Assembly: GCF_000758545.1 (NCBI RefSeq)
Contig: NZ_CP009279.1
Coordinates: 558,001-622,000 of the forward strand
Length of the DNA stretch: 64,000 nucleotides
Origin: Paenibacillus sp. FSL H7-0737
GTDB lineage: Bacteria; Bacillota; Bacilli; Paenibacillales; Paenibacillaceae
Reading direction: 5' to 3'
The translations under genes were made by a program, and so were the position numbers. The notes under the pieces were generated by a model. The model ran no database searches. It worked only from the letters and a program-made list of their open reading frames with translations, and was not told the DNA's origin. Below are positions 29,804-38,904 of this stretch, piece by piece (the stretch's first letter is position 1; every line of letters begins with the position of its first letter).

Positions 29804-30316
29804 TTAGGTTTCCAAAAGCTTAAGATTTACATGGTGAATGACGTTAGCCTTCTCTATACAGGCGAGCATTTCAGCTTCATTCTCACAGACTGCGGCATGC
29901 TCCAGCCATAGTCGGAATTTCTGTTTGCGTATAACGGATAAATGTAAGGGAAAGGTGTTGCGGGATCTCATTACGTACCAACCGACTGCAACTTCTTTCC
30001 ACGGTTCCTTAAAAGCGGTGAGCCACGGAAAACGTTGGTGTGCTGACCAATCCTGCAGCTGTTGCTTTTCTCGGATATTTTTATATATTTCGTATATAAT
30101 TGTTCGGTCCATACAGTATTCACAGGTAGATGGGCTGCTGAAATGGCGAAGTGATTCAATCTGCTTCTGACCAAAAGCATAGCCGACAATAGTTCTGTGA
30201 TGATCCTCTTCGAACCACAACGCTCCAAAGCAAACATAATTTAGACTTATCGGCTCAAGTAGCCCTTGCTGAGTTCCCCAATAATAGTGTTTCATTCCTT
30301 TCACCCCGTCCAGCAT
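29804..30316 (-). CDS. Unrecognised protein, first gene of riboswitch operon
   Basis: A 170-aa soluble protein, rich in aromatic and charged residues, with one CEYC pair (FSSPSTCEYCMDRTIIYEIY). Motifs include VCFGALWFEEDHHRTIVGYA and RFPWLTAFKEPWKEVAVGWY. The family is unknown to me. Start candidates are the ATG at 30316 (GGGTGA upstream) and the ATG at 30295 (GGGGTG six bases upstream). It is the first gene after the leftward c-di-AMP riboswitch and its terminator (30343-30383), so its synthesis should drop when c-di-AMP is high. Confidence 0.65.
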   Translation of the reverse strand: MLDGVKGMKHYYWGTQQGLLEPISLNYVCFGALWFEEDHHRTIVGYAFGQKQIESLRHFSSPSTCEYCMDRTIIYEIYKNIREKQQLQDWSAHQRFPWLTAFKEPWKEVAVGWYVMRSRNTFPLHLSVIRKQKFRLWLEHAAVCENEAEMLACIEKANVIHHVNLKLLET

Positions 30317-30342
30317 GCTATCACCCTATAGATTCAGGTAAC

Positions 30343-30383
30343 GCAAAAACCGCAGCAAGAGGAGGACCTCTGCTGCGGTTTTG
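30343..30383 (-). terminator. Riboswitch-controlled terminator, leftward
   Basis: On the minus strand AAAACCGCAGCA pairs with TGCTGCGGTTTTTG, followed by a T run. It lies between the aptamer and the first gene, as expected for a transcriptional OFF switch. Confidence 0.85.
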
Positions 30384-30430
30384 GAATACAGGTATACACA
30401 CACCTGTGCCAAAGCGTGGCGGATCAAGGG

Positions 30431-30613
30431 TCTCTCTCTTTACGCTTACGAGGTTAGCTGTCGGATTCGGACGGTGAGAGTCGCCCTACCTATGTGAGAC
30501 TTGAACAGTCTCCTTCGGATTCACCCCAAGTAGGCCATGTGGCCTGATGGTTCCCCCGTTCCCTGCAAATGCAGGAACTCAGCGTTGAATGTATTTCGTG
30601 AAATAGATTCAAC
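30431..30613 (-). promoter_or_regulatory. ydaO-type c-di-AMP riboswitch, leftward
   Basis: Read on the minus strand, the conserved blocks appear in order: GTTGAAT...ATTCAAC outer stem, CGGGGGAACC, GGGGTGAATCC, GGTAGGGCGACTCTCACC, CCGAATCCGACAGC, TAACCTCGTAAGCG. This is the ydaO/yuaA c-di-AMP aptamer. It precedes an intrinsic terminator and the three unrecognised genes 30316-28786. In other Firmicutes, ligand binding shuts off expression of potassium uptake and osmotic or cell-wall functions. No characterised target resembles this operon. Confidence 0.93.
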
Positions 30614-30617
30614 CCGA

Positions 30618-30647
30618 ATCATACTCTTTTCAAGGTGTTTCTGTAAA
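30618..30647 (-). promoter_or_regulatory. Promoter of leftward riboswitch operon
   Basis: On the minus strand TTTACA (30647-30642), an 18-bp spacer, then TATGAT (30623-30618), just before the aptamer. The two boxes and the spacing are identical to those of the rightward kdp promoter. Confidence 0.75.
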
Positions 30648-30814
30648 AACAGAAAGTGTTCTTTTGAGCGCAATTTAAACCAAATCCTGCCTACTACGAC
30701 GAAAAAGGGAACCAAATAGGTATTTATTGCGAGTTATCGGGCTTCTTCCTCGCTTAATCTCGCTTTCTTGTTTCCTTTCTTATATAGGCGATTTTTGGTG
30801 ATTTCACTAATCGT

Positions 30815-30830
30815 GGTGAATAAAATCACA
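30815..30830. promoter_or_regulatory. FNR-like box between the two riboswitches
   Basis: GGTGA-ATAAAA-TCACA, one mismatch from the TGTGA-N6-TCACA pattern, in the 313-bp interval between the divergent promoters. The match could be chance in an AT-rich stretch. Confidence 0.3.
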
Positions 30831-30960
30831 TGGTATGACCGTTTTTCGCTAATGGATTGAAACTCGAGTAAACAAGAGATATAGAGAGATTGGATATCAA
30901 GTAAGCGCTATCCAATGCGAAAATAGTTTTTAATTTGCATTATTTTGGCATCAATCAGGT

Positions 30961-30990
30961 TTTACAATACTTCCTGCATAAGGGTATGAT
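30961..30990 (+). promoter_or_regulatory. Promoter of kdp riboswitch operon
   Basis: TTTACA (30961-30966), 18 bp, TATGAT (30985-30990). Transcription would begin near 30997, immediately before the aptamer. Confidence 0.75.
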
Positions 30991-30996
30991 TACTCC

Positions 30997-31195
30997 TGTT
31001 TCAACAACAATCGAATATTTGATCCGCTTAATTTCCGATAAGGAAAGCGGGGGAACCAACAATCGGCAGACGATGTGAGAGTCGGAAGCCGGTTATGGGG
31101 TGAATCCTGTAGAAGATGCCAGTGAGCTCGCATCTATACAGGTAGGGCGACTCTCACCGCCCGAATCCGACAGCTAACCTCGTAAGCGTATGGAG
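30997..31195 (+). promoter_or_regulatory. ydaO-type c-di-AMP riboswitch, kdp operon
   Basis: Conserved blocks in order: CCGCTT/GCGG stem with TTTCC-GATA-GGAAA, CGGGGGAACC, GGGGTGAATCC, GGTAGGGCGACTCTCACC, CCCGAATCCGACAGC, TAACCTCGTAAGCG. It is the same class as the leftward copy, with a different insert between GGGGTGAATCC and GGTAGGGCG. High c-di-AMP, a signal of potassium sufficiency, should terminate transcription before the kdp genes. Such switches are known upstream of Ktr and Kdp genes in Bacillus. Confidence 0.95.
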
Positions 31196-31222
31196 AGAGG
31201 ATGAGTGCAATGTGACCGCTAG

Positions 31223-31256
31223 CGAGCCACAGAGGAGAATCCTTTGTGGCTTTTTG
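31223..31256 (+). terminator. Riboswitch-controlled terminator, kdp operon
   Basis: GCCACAGAGGA and TCCTTTGTGGC with a GAA loop and TTTTT, 28 bp after the aptamer. A second hairpin (AAGATCAG...CTGATCTT) and two copies of AAGCAAAGCATTT follow before the first gene. Confidence 0.88.
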
Positions 31257-31394
31257 CTGTGCTTTTTTAAGCAAAGCATTTATGGAAAACCTCACGAAGA
31301 GGTCGTTATATTCATCATTAGCGGTAGCTTTTCTTTCAAGATCAGGGTGATCAAGCTCTGATCTTACAAGCAAAGCATTTGAGGAGAATAAGAG

Positions 31395-31805
31395 ATGACA
31401 GATCAGAATGAATATGTACTGGTATGTGCGCCAACGAAGGCAGGCGAACATTTTATTAAGCTTCTAAAATTCAGAGGCATTAAGATGGCCGGATTGACCA
31501 ACAACTTGCCTGAGAAGGCCCTACTCGAAGAGATGGGGATTGAACAAGTCGTTCTAGTTGATACCCGCCATCAGAATACTTGGTTTCGCCCGCCGTTTCC
31601 GGTAGGCCGGGTATATCTGTTCGAGAGCAGCTTTACGTTATGCTGCCGTTACATTCAGATGTGCCGTACCTGGACGACACAGCCGATTTTTGTAATTACA
31701 AGCTCAATAAATCCTAGATTGGTCTATAAAAGACTTGGCGCGAGTTATGTAATCTATTCCCACAGCGGTGATGCTGATTTTCTGGTAGATAGATCACCTC
31801 ATTAA
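31395..31805 (+). CDS. Unrecognised first gene of kdp operon
   Basis: A 136-aa protein with an alternating beta/alpha pattern: NEYVLVCAPTKAGEHFIKLL, GLTNNLPEKALLEEMGIEQV, PIFVITSSINPRLVYKRLGA. It looks like a small Rossmann-like or universal-stress-like fold, without a clear nucleotide-binding glycine motif. The ATG has GAGGAG seven bases upstream. It is the first open reading frame after the kdp c-di-AMP riboswitch and directly precedes the 36-aa membrane peptide and kdpF. It is not one of the known Kdp subunits; a regulatory role in potassium uptake is only an inference. Confidence 0.7.
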   Translation: MTDQNEYVLVCAPTKAGEHFIKLLKFRGIKMAGLTNNLPEKALLEEMGIEQVVLVDTRHQNTWFRPPFPVGRVYLFESSFTLCCRYIQMCRTWTTQPIFVITSSINPRLVYKRLGASYVIYSHSGDADFLVDRSPH

Positions 31806-31830: not shown

Positions 31831-31941
31831 ATGATGGATCTGTATATGGTGGCTTCGTTAGCTGTAATTTACGGGTTATTTTATGGATTTATGCGCTGGT
31901 GTGCAGGTGTAGTTGAGGATACGGGGAGGGATAAGCTGTGA
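31831..31941 (+). CDS. 36-aa membrane peptide upstream of kdpF
   Basis: A short reading frame (MMDLYMVASLAVIYGLFYGF, then MRWCAGVVEDTGRDKL) with one predicted transmembrane helix. An AAGGAG site precedes the ATG pair. Its TGA stop overlaps the GTG start of kdpF (GTGA), so the two are translationally coupled. It is too short for most gene finders but the ribosome binding site, coupling and operon position make it credible. Function is unknown; a small helper of the Kdp complex, like KdpF itself, is plausible. Confidence 0.65.
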   Translation: MMDLYMVASLAVIYGLFYGFMRWCAGVVEDTGRDKL

Positions 31942-32015
31942 TTCTAGTAATCGCTGTTACCCTACTGCTGTTTATATATCTGGTTTATGCATTGATTCAT
32001 CCGGAGAAATTTTAA
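31938..32015 (+). CDS. kdpF: Potassium-transporting ATPase subunit F
   Basis: A 25-aa single-helix peptide (MILVIAVTLLLFIYLVYALI followed by HPEKF) with the typical KdpF ending, hydrophobic throughout apart from the C-terminal charges. It stabilises the KdpABC complex. The start is a GTG overlapping the stop of the preceding 36-aa gene, and kdpA follows after 12 bp with an AAGGAGG site that overlaps the kdpF stop region. Confidence 0.85.
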   Translation: MILVIAVTLLLFIYLVYALIHPEKF

Positions 32016-32027
32016 GGAGGGGCATTC

Positions 32028-33704
32028 ATGGGCATTTTGCAAATTGTTGCTGTAATCGTAATTCTCATCTTGCTGGTTAAGCCGATGGGCACGTATTTAT
32101 ATTATGTGTTTTCTAATGAACCGAACCGTACGGATCGATGGTTTGGAGGTATGGAAAAAGGAATTTTTAAGCTGATCGGCCTGAAAAAACGGGACGGTAT
32201 GTCCTGGAAGAAGTATGCGCTCAGCTTTGTTTTAACGAATATCGTACTGGTTACTTTCAGCTATATCTTTCTTCGATTGCAGCGGGGTTTACCGCTAAAT
32301 CCGAATGGAATTGCGGATATGGAACAGACGCTTTCGTTCAATACGGTGATTAGTTTTATGACTAATACAAACCTGCAGCATTACAGCGGGGAGACGGGAC
32401 TTTCGTATTTTTCACAAATGGCTGTCATCACGATGATGATGTTCACGTCTGCAGCGAGCGGATTTTCTGTTGCGGTTGCCTTTGTCAGAGGGATCACAGG
32501 ACGGAAATCAGTCGGGAACTTCTTCGAGGATTTCGTTAAAGCACATATTCGTGTATTCATTCCTCTAGCTCTGCTGGTTTCATTGGTACTGGTAGGACTA
32601 CATGTGCCGCAAACACTCAAGCCATCGCTTGAAGTCACTACACTAGAGGGGCAAACGCAACAAATTGCTATCGGTCCAGTAGCTTCTCTGGAATCGATCA
32701 AGCATTTGGGCACCAATGGTGGCGGCTTCTTCGGAGCCAATTCATCGCATCCTTTTGAGAACCCTAATCCACTTACGAACGTGCTAGAGATTCTCTCTAT
32801 GTGGATGCTGCCAGCTTCGCTCCCTTATATGTACGGATTGTTTGCCAAGAACAAACGTCAGGGCTGGGTAATTTTTACCGCAATGATGACCTTGTTTGTT
32901 CTGCTATTAAGCCTAAACTTCTATGCTGAATCGAAAGGCAATCCGGCGATCAATGCACTAGGAATAGAATCTTCACAAGGTAGTATGGAAGGTAAAGAGG
33001 TGCGCTTCGGCATACCGCAGTCTTCCTTGTTTACTTCAGTAACAACCGCAGCTACGACAGGTAGTGTTAACAATATGCATGATACGCTGACGCCGCTGGG
33101 AGGCATTACGCCTCTTGCACTGATGATGCTCAACAATGTCTTCGGTGGTAAAGGTGTCGGACTGATCAATATGCTGATGTATGCGATTCTGGGTGTCTTC
33201 CTGTGCGGTCTCATGGTCGGCAGGACACCGGAGTTCCTCGGACGGAAAATAGAGGCCAAGGAGATGAAGCTGATTGCCATAGCGATCCTTGTGCATCCGT
33301 TCATTATCCTTGTGCCAACCGCAGCTGCGTTCCTGACCGATTTGGGGCAAGGGGCGATTACGAACACTGGATTCCATGGACTCAGCCAAGTGTTATATGA
33401 ATATGTCTCTTCTGCCGCGAACAATGGTTCAGGATTTGAAGGGCTTGCAGACAATACAACTTTTTGGAATGTCACAACCGGGATTGTCATGCTGCTAGGT
33501 CGTTATGTCTCTATCATTGCAATGCTGGCGGTAGCAGGTTCTCTGCTTAAGAAGAAGCCGGTTCCTGAGACGATTGGCACGTTCCGCACAGACAATGGAC
33601 TGTTTACGGGAATTCTGATTGGTACAGTAGTGATTATCGGTGCGTTGACGTTCCTGCCGGTCATTGTACTCGGCCCCATTGCAGAATATCTAACCTTACG
33701 GTAG
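32028..33704 (+). CDS. kdpA: Potassium-transporting ATPase subunit A
   Basis: The 558-aa K+-channel-like subunit of the high-affinity Kdp pump, with about 10-12 hydrophobic helices. The four selectivity-filter-like loops are visible, the clearest being [11 protein letters not shown] and [20 protein letters not shown]. It binds and moves K+ across the membrane using ATP hydrolysis in KdpB. The ATG has AAGGAGGGG upstream. kdpB follows after 16 bp. Length matches the family. Confidence 0.97.
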
Positions 33705-33720: not shown

Positions 33721-35754
33721 ATGAGTACTGTAAAAAGAAAAAAGCTGCTGACGGGACCCATACTCCTTAGCGCTGTAAAGGATAGTTTTATAAAGCTTAA
33801 CCCAGTAACGCTAATCAAAAATCCCGTCATGTTCGTGGTAGAGGTCGGTACGATCATTGTCCTCCTCATGGTGCTGGCTCCTGGATATTTTAATGCAGAG
33901 CAATCGATAGGCTTCAATATCACAGTGTTGTTCATTCTGCTGTTTACAGTGCTGTTTGCGAACTTCGCTGAAGCACTGGCAGAAGGCCGGGGGAAAGCCC
34001 AAGCCGATTCGCTCAAGAAAACAAAACAAGATATCACAGCTAACAAACTGGTTGGAGGAGCGGTGAAGACAGTCTCTTCCTCCGAGCTGCGTAAAGGAGA
34101 TATCGTCATTGTCAGTCAGGGAGAACTCATCCCTGGTGACGGTGAGGTGATTGAAGGGCTGGCTTCCGTAGATGAATCAGCGATTACAGGTGAATCTGCA
34201 CCTGTAATCAAGGAGGCTGGTGGGGACTTTGGCTCCGTTACAGGCGGTACACGGGTCGTCAGTGATGAGATTAAAGTCAGAATTACAAGTGATCCTGGTG
34301 AGTCGTTTCTAGATCGAATGATCTCTCTTGTTGAAGGGGCGAAACGTCAGAAGACACCTAACGAAATTGCGCTAAATACGCTTTTGATCAGTCTGACGCT
34401 GATTTTCTTGATTGTAGTAGTGACCTTGCGGCCGATTGCAACTTATCTAGGTGTTGATCTTGATATTCCGGTTATGATCGCCTTGTTGGTCTGTCTGATC
34501 CCGACAACTATCGGGGGACTGCTATCCGCAATCGGAATAGCGGGTATGGACCGGGTGACCCAGTTTAATGTACTCGCGATGTCTGGTAAGGCCGTTGAGG
34601 CTGCTGGCGATATTAATACGATGATCCTAGATAAGACCGGTACGATTACCTTTGGGAACCGGATGGCGAGTGAATTTGTACCAGTCGGAAATGAATCCGA
34701 AGCGGAGCTTACGGCATGGGCGGCCATCAGTTCCCTAAAGGATGAGACGCCTGAGGGACGTTCTGTAATTGAGCTGGCCAAAAAGCTGGAACGCAGCTAT
34801 GACAGCAAGCTTGCTGAAGGTGGCGAATTCGTAGAGTTTAAGGCCGAAACTCGGATGAGTGGTATTGACCTGCAAGATGGACGCTGCGTACGCAAAGGTG
34901 CGGTAGACTCCGTGAAGAAATGGGTACAGTCGAAAGGCGGTGTCATTCCCGCGAACCTCGACAGTAATTCTGATGCCATCGCCCGGATGGGGGGGACCCC
35001 GTTAGCGGTTGCGGTAGACAATCGGATCTATGGACTTATTTACTTGAAGGATACCGTTAAGCCAGGCATGAAAGAGCGGTTTGATGAGCTGCGGAAAATG
35101 GGGATCAAGACCATCATGTGTACGGGTGACAATCCGCTGACCGCAGCTACGATTGCCCGTGAAGCGGGGGTAGATGATTTCATCGCTGAAAGTACACCTG
35201 AGGATAAAATAGCAGTCATTCGCCGCGAACAGAACGAGGGTAAGCTGGTTGCGATGACCGGGGATGGTACAAATGATGCCCCTGCCCTTGCGCAAGCTGA
35301 TGTGGGCTTAGCCATGAATAGCGGCACTACAGCTGCTAAGGAAGCAGCAAATATGGTCGATTTGGACTCCGACCCTTCGAAGATTATAGAGGTCGTAGCG
35401 ATTGGTAAACAGCTGCTGATGACGCGGGGTGCGTTAACAACCTTTAGTATCGCGAATGATATCGCGAAGTATTTCGCTATTATTCCGGCGATGTTCATGC
35501 TCGCCATTCCTGAAATGGAAGCCCTGAATGTAATGGGACTAGGCTCGCCAAGCTCGGCTATAATATCCGCCTTAATATTTAATGCGATTATTATTCCGCT
35601 GCTCATCCCACTGGCTATGAAGGGTGTGTCGTATAAAGCTATGAGCTCTACGAAGCTGCTTGGACGTAATATATTTATCTATGGGCTAGGCGGAGTGGTT
35701 GTTCCATTTGCTGGCATCAAGCTCATTGATATGATCGTAAGTGTATGGATTTAA
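33721..35754 (+). CDS. kdpB: Potassium-transporting P-type ATPase subunit B
   Basis: The 677-aa catalytic subunit. The phosphorylation site DKTGT is at Asp304 ([13 protein letters not shown]); the actuator domain has AITGESAPV, and the hinge has [20 protein letters not shown]. It couples ATP hydrolysis to K+ uptake through KdpA. The transmembrane segments include [20 protein letters not shown]. The ATG follows GAGGGAG. kdpC starts 38 bp later. Confidence 0.97.
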
Positions 35755-35791: not shown

Positions 35792-36418
35792 GTGAATAAC
35801 GGAAACGCCATGGAGGACACTGAAGAGCAGTTATCATCATCGAAAGGTGCTTATTTCTTTATTATTGTGCGACTAAGTTTAGTATTTATTGTTCTCTGCG
35901 GAGTGATCTATCCTCTGACAACTACAGCGCTTGCCCAGGTTCTAATGCCGTCGCAAGCGAACGGCAGCTTGCTTAAGAATGATGCTGGAGTAGTTGTAGG
36001 CTCGGAACTCATTGGGCAGAACTTTACGAACCCAGCACTATTTCATGGTCGTGTGTCTAGTATTGAGTATAAAGCAGAAGCCTCAGGGTCCAATAACTAC
36101 GCTCCATCCAATCCGGATATGCTGCAGCGGACAAAGGATTTCATTACGCAGTGGAAGCTCGATAATCCGGATGTGCCCGTGAACAAATTGCCAGTTGATT
36201 TGGTCACCAACTCGGGTTCGGGGCTTGATCCGCATATCACACCAGCTTCAGCAATGGTGCAGATTCCTCGGATTAGCAATTTAACCGGTATTCCTGCATC
36301 GCAGCTGGAAGAGCTCGTAAATAAGCATACCGAGGGTCGTGACTTAGGGTTGTTTGGTGAAGAACGGGTCAATGTGTTGAAGCTGAACATGGATCTACTG
36401 AAACTATCGAACAAATAA
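35792..36418 (+). CDS. kdpC: Potassium-transporting ATPase subunit C
   Basis: A 208-aa accessory subunit with one N-terminal transmembrane helix (about 25-48, [20 protein letters not shown]) and a periplasm-side domain ending in [20 protein letters not shown], the KdpC signature. It interacts with KdpB and modulates ATP affinity. The start is a GTG with AAAGGGTGA upstream; an ATG at 35807 is an alternative. After it there is a hairpin (CCCTGCC/GGGCAGG) without a T run and a REP-like element before kdpD. Confidence 0.94.
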
Positions 36419-36535: not shown

Positions 36536-36579
36536 CAGAAGGGTACATGCATGATCGGGGTTAGTAAGGAGTGGTCTTG

Positions 36580-38904
36580 ATGGGAACATACCGGAGGAAG
36601 ACGCCGGAGGAGCTGCTGCTCTCTATCTATGAGCTGCATCGGGGACGTCTGAAGATCTATATCGGTCCGGTCAGTGGGTCGGGCAAAACGTATCAGATGC
36701 TGCGTGAGGGCCAGGCACTAAAAGCGCAGGGAATCGATGTTGTGATCTGTGCGGTTTCGACGAATCAGAGTCCAGAAACTAAGGATCAGCTGGGCGATTT
36801 GGAACGGATACCAAGTATTCATTGGTTTCAGAAAGATATAGAGAAGAAGGATCTTGATGTAGAAGCTATTGTGGCACGTAATCCCGAAGTTGTGCTAACC
36901 GATGGCTTGGCCCACCAGAATCGCGAGGGTGCGGAGAGATCTGGAAGACTGGACGATATCAAATACTTATTGAGCAATGGGATTAGTGTCATCACAACTG
37001 TAAACGTGTACGAACTAGAAGGTGCTGCGGATCTGGCACGGAAATGGACCGGGATTGAGGTAGAGCATTCTCTTCCCGCCGAGGTGCTTACCCTTGCCGA
37101 TGATATCGTTCTAATTGATGTGACCCCTGAAAAAATACTTCAGCGCTTGTCCGATGGCCATTTAGGTAAACGCCAGCAGAGATCGCTTTTTAATAAGGGT
37201 AATTTAAGCAAGCTGCGGGAGCTGGCACTTCGGATGGTCGCTGAGGATGTTAATGACTCGCTGGAGAAACACCGGGAAGAACAAGGGCTGCAGGGAGCTT
37301 CGGGGATCGCAGAAAAAGTGTTGGTATCTGCGCAGTATTATTGGAATGGCTCGATCCACATCCGACGTGGACAGCAGATTGCCAAGCGGTTAAATGGGGA
37401 TCTTTCAGTAGTGTCATTCTGGAAGCAGGGTCTCACCCTTTCTAAGGAAGCAGCTACATTTAAGCGTTCCCTCTGGAAGCTGACCGAGAAGATTGGTGCC
37501 TCTATGGAGGAGATCACCTTTCGCTCGAAGCGGGAGATCCCACATCTGTTGGTAAAATACGCGATAGAACATAATATTACCCGGATCGTTATGGGACATT
37601 CCAAGCAGACCGCTTGGCAGGAATTATGGAAAGGCTCAATCGCTAATTCGTTACTGAAGCAAATCCGAGGTGTGGATGTGTTCTTCGTAGCGGATCGCGC
37701 AGATCGCGAAGGAGAACGTGTACTTCCAACCCGGCAGAGTCGTAATGAACGGAAAGCGGATGCCTATCACAGGTTAAGCAGTCAGGAAGTAAAGGATAAA
37801 ATCGATGCGATTCGCGGAGGAACCTTTAAGGTATATATTGGGGCTGCTCCCGGTGTGGGCAAGACTTACAAGATGCTGCGTGAAGGGAACGATCTCTTAA
37901 AGAGAGGGATCGATGTCGTGATAGGGCTCCTGGAGACACATGGCCGCAAAGAAACCCTTGAACAAATAGGCGATTTGGAGACCCTTCCGCGTCTACGTAT
38001 GGAGTACCGCGGGACTATCCTTGAGGAGATGGATACGGCAGCAATTATTAAGCGTAATCCAGAAGTCGTGCTAGTGGACGAACTCGCTCATACCAATATG
38101 CCAGGCAGCAAACATAAGAAGCGGTATATGGATGTTATGGAGCTGCTGGATGCGGGAATATCTGTGATTTCTACCGTGAATGTGCAGCATTTAGAAAGTC
38201 TGAATGACGCTGTAGAGCAAATTACAGGAGTTAGAGTAAGGGAGACTTTTCCGGACAGCATTCTACAGCGGGCAAATGAGGTAGAGCTTATCGATGTATC
38301 ACCCAAGACGCTTCAAGAGCGAATGAAGGACGGAAAAATATATGCCATGGCCAAGGTGGATCAGGCGCTGGGGGCTTTTTTCAAAATCGGGAATTTGATC
38401 GCCCTACGGGAGCTGGCGTTGCGGGAAATTGCTGATGATGTAGATGAAAGGCTAGAATCTTGGGAACGTGTTGGTTCGTTACGGGGACCTTGGCGGCGTC
38501 AGGAAGTAATATATGTGTGTATCACCTTGGGGGATCATGCGGAGCGTTTAATTCGGCGTGGTTTTCGGATTGCATATCGTCTAAAAGCTTGCTGGTATGT
38601 TACGTATGTGCAGGAATTTAAACAAAATGGACCCGTATATGATAAACGTATAAATGATTTAAAGGAATTGACGGAACGACTGGGTGGAACGTTCAAGATG
38701 ATTCCTAACGTACTTCCTGCACGAGTGGCGTCCTTGCTGCTTGAAAGATCTCAAGCTTTGCAGAGTACTCAGATTATTATTGGTCAATCACAACGCTCAT
38801 GGCTGCGAAAAAGTATTCGCGGCGATGTTACCAAGCAGATTCTGCGTTCTGCCAGAAACGTGGATGTGCTGGTCGTGGCAGATCTCATACGTGAGGAAGC
38901 ATAG
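36580..38904 (+). CDS. Internally duplicated KdpD sensor domain, no kinase
   Basis: A 774-aa protein consisting of two tandem KdpD N-terminal modules. The first (about residues 1-400) has a diverged P-loop, GPVSGSGKTY, and LTDGLAHQN. The second (about 412-774) has the consensus forms GAAPGVGKTYK and LVDELAHTN. Each is followed by a universal-stress-protein-like domain. The four-helix membrane segment, the HisKA and the HATPase domains of full KdpD are missing. No KdpE gene is adjacent. Stand-alone KdpD stubs exist in Firmicutes, and the USP domain of S. aureus KdpD binds c-di-AMP. The ATG at 36580 has AAGGAG eight bases upstream; a GTG at 36571 also opens the frame. Confidence 0.88.
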   Translation: MGTYRRKTPEELLLSIYELHRGRLKIYIGPVSGSGKTYQMLREGQALKAQGIDVVICAVSTNQSPETKDQLGDLERIPSIHWFQKDIEKKDLDVEAIVARNPEVVLTDGLAHQNREGAERSGRLDDIKYLLSNGISVITTVNVYELEGAADLARKWTGIEVEHSLPAEVLTLADDIVLIDVTPEKILQRLSDGHLGKRQQRSLFNKGNLSKLRELALRMVAEDVNDSLEKHREEQGLQGASGIAEKVLVSAQYYWNGSIHIRRGQQIAKRLNGDLSVVSFWKQGLTLSKEAATFKRSLWKLTEKIGASMEEITFRSKREIPHLLVKYAIEHNITRIVMGHSKQTAWQELWKGSIANSLLKQIRGVDVFFVADRADREGERVLPTRQSRNERKADAYHRLSSQEVKDKIDAIRGGTFKVYIGAAPGVGKTYKMLREGNDLLKRGIDVVIGLLETHGRKETLEQIGDLETLPRLRMEYRGTILEEMDTAAIIKRNPEVVLVDELAHTNMPGSKHKKRYMDVMELLDAGISVISTVNVQHLESLNDAVEQITGVRVRETFPDSILQRANEVELIDVSPKTLQERMKDGKIYAMAKVDQALGAFFKIGNLIALRELALREIADDVDERLESWERVGSLRGPWRRQEVIYVCITLGDHAERLIRRGFRIAYRLKACWYVTYVQEFKQNGPVYDKRINDLKELTERLGGTFKMIPNVLPARVASLLLERSQALQSTQIIIGQSQRSWLRKSIRGDVTKQILRSARNVDVLVVADLIREEA

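Follow-up and report, generated by a model that had tools for sequence, protein, structure and literature searches.

In Bacillus thuringiensis the kdp operon is reported to lie under a riboswitch of the c-di-AMP class and to be associated with a truncated KdpD (PMC6488665). The same study counted 12 species in which a riboswitch regulates the kdp operon, and its main text contains neither the word "divergent" nor "Paenibacillus". C-di-AMP riboswitches have also been described as doublets, 77 of them (Sherlock et al. 2022, PMC9481103); the terms "divergent" and "opposite strand" are absent from the main text of that study. A Paenibacillus transcriptome report mentions one ydaO element, located before a cell-wall hydrolase (PMC5670726), and a survey of antisense-acting riboswitches, its supplements aside, gives 27 ydaO-yuaA cases (PMC9943018). 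No divergent or head-to-head riboswitch pair is named in the titles and abstract openings returned by a literature search, in which subscription coverage is partial and absence is unproven.

Here we describe a locus of Paenibacillus sp. FSL H7-0737 in which two aptamers of this class occupy opposite strands of a single intergenic region (30316 to 31395). Coordinates refer to the window, the whole stretch of 64,000 nucleotides that was analysed. The sequence and its conservation support two riboswitches of the c-di-AMP class, each with a promoter and a terminator of its own and one of them driving kdp. The two probably act together as a two-way OFF switch for c-di-AMP within a single response to potassium limitation.

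A cmscan of the full 64 kb window at the gathering threshold returned RF00379 twice and no other Rfam family. The c-di-AMP (ydaO/yuaA) riboswitch aptamer on the kdp side (31015 to 31204, plus strand) scored 101.9 bits (E 4.6e-23) and the one on the side of the P3, P2 and P1 genes (30429 to 30594, minus strand) scored 91.9 bits (E 2.7e-20), against a gathering score of 38. Both cover the model at full length, positions 1-134. The conserved core (GGGGGAACC, TAGGG, CCGAA and AGCTAACCTCG) is present in both and is invariant or nearly so across 34 aligned aptamers. Because the genome holds only eight RF00379 matches in 6.77 Mb, a chance meeting of two aptamers head-to-head less than 1 kb apart is very unlikely. 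The other six, with gene names assigned by inspection, precede genes for a KimA-type permease, a KtrB/TrkH-type transporter, two NlpC/P60-type hydrolases, a 3D-domain-type cell-wall protein and an alpha/beta hydrolase. The two NlpC/P60-like hydrolase genes adjoin each other and have one c-di-AMP aptamer apiece (G000:C1:122710-123831; L007, L008).

Each aptamer is preceded by a predicted promoter, TTTACA-18-TATGAT, at 30961 to 30990 (plus strand) for the kdp leader and at 30618 to 30647 (minus strand) for the left leader. The predicted promoters end 24 (plus) and 23 (minus) bases from their aptamers. In an alignment of the window with five close relatives the hexamers of both are kept in all six sequences, and the spacing is 18 throughout except in the left promoter of L075, where it is 17. 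Sites of this type are no more numerous than expected by chance (4 found vs 3.1 +/- 1.8 in shuffles), and the promoter calls therefore rest on position and conservation. Transcription would start near 30997 (plus) and 30611 (minus), judging from these predicted sites. Behind the kdp-side aptamer an intrinsic terminator with a 13 bp stem and a U-run is located at 31224-31252 (plus). The left terminator (30382-30346, minus) has a stem of about 15 bp with one bulge followed by TTTTT, and was missed by an initial pattern scan. The earlier note had claimed a complete ydaO-type aptamer on each strand, with five quoted motifs, an intrinsic terminator behind it and TTTACA, 18 bp, TATGAT before it, and had proposed a scan with RF00379. 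That scan is above threshold on both strands, all five motifs are present in both aptamers, and the terminators and the conserved promoter sequences are found on both sides, though the latter at a count not above chance. Upstream of the kdp promoter, a strongly conserved block contains the dyad ATTGGATA-N12-TATCCAAT (30889-30916). Among the six aligned sequences, both arms are altered in L075 with the symmetry retained, and L078 and L079 have a mismatch in one arm.

In the kdp transcript P4 (31395 to 31805, plus strand; 136 aa) comes first, ahead of the kdp genes. It is followed on the same strand by a kdpF-like short ORF with a GTG start (31938 to 32015; 25 aa, named by inspection of its translation) and by kdpA (32028 to 33704; PF03814 1.1e-235, TIGR00680), kdpB (33721 to 35754; TIGR01497 1109 bits) and kdpC (35792 to 36418; PF02669 3.7e-69), the last three in KdpFABC operon order. 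A KdpD-like non-kinase of 777 aa comes next (36571 to 38904, plus strand; NF038185 776 bits, in two stretches). It has two stretches each of PF02702 and PF00582, and neither HisKA nor HATPase is among its Pfam and NCBIfam matches at E <= 1. The whole KdpD+Usp module is doubled in this protein.

The AlphaFold model of P4 (pLDDT 90.4) aligns with KtrA/TrkA-N over 119 residues (Z 13.5, rmsd 2.5), and the best Foldseek match has an E of 4.5e-6. Pfam matches of P4 relatives are weak and mixed (TrkA_N in 10/53, ADH_zinc_N in 13/53), and by sequence the PDB chains matched are a HAD phosphatase (0.0067) and a TrkA protein (0.05). In RCK_N domains a GxGxxG nucleotide loop is expected. P4 has no GxGxxG, and almost every aligned sequence shows APxxxG at that place. 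RCK_C is lacking, because the protein ends after one domain. P4 is thus predicted, from its model, to be a lone KtrA/TrkA-N-like (RCK_N) domain, a fold that by itself shows no function. It is 96% identical in L130, Paenibacillus sp. VTT E-133291.

The left operon reads P3, P2, P1 on the minus strand. P3 (29804 to 30316; 170 aa) has a second ATG at 30295, a likely start, and matches nothing in Pfam or NCBIfam at E <= 1. P2 (29278 to 29787; 169 aa) is the core gene of this operon. P1 (28786 to 29247; 153 aa) is weakly ECF-sigma-like: its best NCBIfam match, SigW (1.9e-5), reaches 24.6 bits against a cut-off of 209. None of the three passes the cut-off of any Pfam model. The family of P2 is unnamed, and none of the families searched matches more than one of its 43 members. 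Its sequence link to the enolase superfamily is almost nil (MR_MLE_N, E 0.12 for the P2 of the window), and the single match to PDB chains by sequence is at chance level. Since Foldseek gave nothing at E <= 0.001 (best E 0.029), the reading of P2 as an enolase-superfamily capping domain rests on a comparison of the predicted model (pLDDT 75.1; below 50 at residues 111-116, 127-130 and 133-146) with the capping domain of mandelate racemase/muconate lactonizing enzyme, which aligns over 125 residues (VIA; Z 11.3, rmsd 3.4). A catalytic barrel domain is absent, 169 aa being too short to hold one. P2 is predicted to be a lone enolase-type capping domain, and again the fold alone shows no function.

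The divergent layout recurs in the genus. At the RF00379 gathering score the window and 13 other loci (L010, L012-L016, L040, L045, L046, L048, L055, L056, L058) have an aptamer on both strands. P4 has a match in 56/100 genus genomes, own included, and a covariance model built from 34 aptamers was run over the 57 P4 loci of these 56 genomes, where the training rows match by construction. The two weakest of its 97 matches (L081 and L080; 26.7 and 24.4 bits) were excluded from the counts of the 57 loci, P2 places, terminators and tree. An opposite-strand aptamer is found in 23/57 P4 loci, window included, and a gene of the P1, P2 or P3 family follows it in all 23. Two tandem aptamers stand on the kdp side in 20/57 loci, seven of which also have the divergent aptamer. 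Three aptamers thus share one intergenic region in L104, L105, L115, L118, L120, L122 and L123, two facing P4-kdp and one facing P2. No aptamer was counted on either strand in five of the 57 loci. For L098 and L101 the count gives no kdp-side aptamer since the ORF start was set too far upstream; the covariance search finds one in each. In L083-L096 a riboswitch and P4 are present with no kdpA in the 2.5-3 kb downstream. Where kdpA was found in these genomes it lies elsewhere, so P4 can stand apart from kdp.

A second set comprised the best 80 of 163 named P4 relatives, mostly from Paenibacillus, with some from Cohnella, one Brevibacillus metagenome-assembled genome and one Siminovitchia record; the scores of the last two are so alike that contamination is possible. 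This set overlaps the 57 loci, and counts from the two must not be summed. Among the best 80, an opposite-strand aptamer lies upstream of P4 in 32 and is followed by a P1-P3 gene in 29. This count keeps the two weakest sites (here L132 and L131), and under the rule used for the 57 loci the figures become 31 and 28; it omits two far matches, L164 and L182. The aptamer is at most 1.5 kb from P4 in 28 of the 32. In L147, L149, L152 and L195 it is more than 2 kb away and therefore belongs to another intergenic region. The opposite-strand aptamers of L149, L160 and L166 have no P1-P3 gene behind them, an alpha/beta hydrolase gene taking this place in L160. At least two kdp-side aptamers are present in 38 of the best 80 loci, and in seven of these (L143, L147, L149, L152, L166, L179, L196) the second match is below 50 bits.

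The composition of the left operon varies, with P3 matched in 20/100 genus genomes, own included, and P2 in 49/100. The P2 profile identified 50 places in these 49 genomes (from 52 profile rows, two being second pieces of one gene); it was built on P4-linked loci and may therefore favour such members. An aptamer on the same strand lies directly upstream in 31/50 places. KdpA is located within 15 kb of P2 in 24/50, six of which have no same-strand upstream aptamer, and most genomes surveyed carry one kdpA. Six of the named loci (L165, L168, L172, L184, L198, L200) have P2 immediately ahead of P4-kdpA in the kdp orientation, with an aptamer upstream of it in four and none found for L172 and L198. 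A second kdpB lies directly behind P2 in L160, and in L195 a 128-aa ORF stands between the two. The earlier note had taken the head-to-head layout to imply that one signal co-regulates kdp and an unrelated unknown operon. Kdp does lie downstream of one riboswitch, but "unrelated" is rejected, because P2 is near kdpA in 24/50 places, before P4-kdpA in six loci and before a second kdpB in two. The P1-P3 genes appear to belong to the potassium response that includes kdp.

P2 is also found near kdp genes in the absence of an aptamer. In G059 and G087 a P3-P2 pair is divergent from the kdp operon, and in G002 (L210) P2 neighbours kdpA together with genes for a full KdpD kinase and an OmpR-type response regulator; no aptamer was found in the 16 kb examined in any of the three. 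The left strand of L161 carries P2, an alpha/beta hydrolase, P3 and, at its end, a KimA-like permease. Twelve aptamer-P2 cassettes are located away from kdp (L072, L213-L215, L217-L221, L224-L226). Of the 19 places that have no same-strand aptamer upstream of P2, nine (the second copy of G008, and G017, G025, G041, G058, G063, G076, G090 and G095) lack both an aptamer within 2.5 kb and kdpA within 15 kb, and the stretch examined shows no KdpD-like gene; in G090 P2 has an aptamer 5.7 kb upstream. Tandem aptamers precede an alpha/beta hydrolase gene that is divergent from an aptamer-less P2 in L211:8931-10369, L216:6290-7731 and L222:8791-10231. In L160:3804-8605 and L195:2035-7296 the order is P2, the second kdpB (no kdpA found beside it) and a PAS-GGDEF-EAL protein. 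This arrangement possibly joins c-di-AMP and c-di-GMP signalling.

A terminator-like hairpin of -10 kcal/mol or lower within 220 nt was found behind 102/114 aptamers, compared with 10/114 mononucleotide-shuffled copies. This folding scan replaced an ungapped scan (51/114 within 350 nt), which had missed bulged stems. A general antiterminator formed by the 3' strand of the aptamer was not found, pairing between the 5' arm of the terminator and the 3' end of the aptamer (P > 0.5) being present in 7/102 leaders. For some leaders on the kdp side, pairing of this 5' arm with a linker directly behind the aptamer is possible. No hairpin reaches -10 kcal/mol behind the left aptamers of L115, L118, L120, L122 and L123, the one in L120 being at -6.0, and these aptamers end 0-3 nt from the P2 ORF start. 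In L122 the ATG is preceded by GGAGAGA, which stands behind the aptamer and is itself probably the ribosome-binding site. The kdp-side aptamers of these five loci keep their terminators in 10/10 cases. Because the left aptamer abuts the P2 start with no terminator between them, translational control of the left switch is suggested in these loci. Along one lineage the same aptamer seems to have switched between termination and translation as its output. In L072:7640-8060 an aptamer without a terminator is followed by only the tail of P3, as if deleted, upstream of an intact P2.

The ancestry of the aptamers was examined with a FastTree phylogeny of 119 short sequences, rooted at the midpoint. 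It contains the 114 aptamers of the P4 and P2 loci and five of the six other aptamers of the genome (L006 was left out), and does not include the best-80 named loci. One clade of 36 tips (support 0.976) consists of all 23 divergent aptamers, all 12 stand-alone P2 aptamers and one other, and the kdp-side aptamers fall outside it. The left and stand-alone P2 aptamers thus share a common ancestry, and from their separation in the tree it follows that the left switch travels with P2.

If the two-way switch serves a single response, two separate promoters would fire outward and each transcript would start with its own aptamer and terminator. With plentiful potassium, c-di-AMP would be high, both aptamers would be bound and both leaders would end early. 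When potassium is short, c-di-AMP would fall and both leaders would be read through. Rightward read-through would yield the RCK_N-like P4, KdpFABC and the double KdpD-like non-kinase, and leftward read-through P3, P2 and P1, which would most likely assist or regulate the uptake of potassium. That c-di-AMP turns these switches off is inferred from the class and from the B. thuringiensis kdp case (PMC6488665), and the ligand, the use of the promoters and a part for P1-P4 in potassium uptake are likewise putative.

The pair may instead be a passive neighbourhood of two normal c-di-AMP operons, the left one, for example in cell wall or sigma-factor signalling, sharing the messenger and not potassium. 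The cell-wall hydrolase genes behind other aptamers of the genome fit such a reading, as do the 12 cassettes in which P2 has its own aptamer away from kdp and the weak ECF-sigma likeness of P1. We nevertheless consider it unlikely: kdpA is near P2 in 24/50 places though most genomes have only one, P2 keeps this company even without an aptamer in G059, G087 and G002 (with KdpDE beside it in the last), and in eight named loci it stands just before P4-kdpA or upstream of kdpB. Another origin, a recent inverted duplication of one leader with one copy decaying or redundant, would explain the inverted repeat that the two aptamers form over a 60-nt stretch, with 95% complementarity. That stretch, however, is the conserved core of the aptamer family, and both aptamers of the window are far above the gathering score, each with a terminator. 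The left and kdp-side aptamers separate in the tree, where 23/23 left ones cluster with the stand-alone P2 aptamers, and the pair therefore did not arise as a recent inverted copy. This origin was dropped after the tree, short sequences and midpoint rooting included, and we regard it as highly improbable.

The two directions could also be interlocked, either through the promoters, whose -35 sites are 313 bp apart, or through a protein bound to the dyad at 30889-30916, with the riboswitches only trimming a response set by that factor. The strongly conserved block that holds the dyad and the two-arm change of L075 that preserves its symmetry are in keeping with this. On the other side, no regulator gene for the dyad was found, the alignment consists of the window and five close relatives, and two of these, L078 and L079, are mismatched in one arm; we judge direct coupling to be rather doubtful. 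The two-way c-di-AMP switch for one potassium-limitation response remains the reading that we prefer. The KimA-like and KtrB/TrkH-like transporter genes behind other aptamers of the genome fit it, while the variable left operons, the P2 places that lack an aptamer, the 12 cassettes away from kdp, the five P4 loci with no counted aptamer and the absence of a general antiterminator in the folding count against it.

That preferred reading would extend the c-di-AMP potassium regulon to the unnamed families P2, P3 and P4, whose conserved company with kdp offers a direct and testable guess at function. It would also provide a natural comparison, one messenger controlling two opposite transcripts. 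A bolder proposal is quite possible, and we put it forward tentatively. P2 may found a new c-di-AMP-controlled potassium-limitation family, a lone capping domain that binds or tunes Kdp together with P3 and P4. Its own riboswitch lineage would have been kept across Paenibacillus and placed face-to-face with kdp (also in Cohnella), one messenger releasing pump and partner, and the output would have moved between terminator and start codon along the lineage.

The locus is like the B. thuringiensis kdpFABC operon (PMC6488665), as far as that system is described there, in having an RF00379-class aptamer ahead and a kinase-less KdpD-like gene downstream. It differs in that an RCK_N-like gene comes first, the KdpD-like protein is doubled and another riboswitch, in divergent orientation, precedes P3-P2-P1. 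Tandem c-di-AMP riboswitches (PMC9481103) likewise have several aptamers per site, and relatives of this locus have kdp-side doublets; the tandem aptamers described there are on one transcript, whereas the two of the window are on opposite strands. P4 resembles KtrA/TrkA-N (RCK_N) in its predicted fold, but is without RCK_C and has APxxxG for GxGxxG. P2 resembles mandelate racemase/muconate lactonizing enzyme in its predicted capping fold, but is without the barrel domain.
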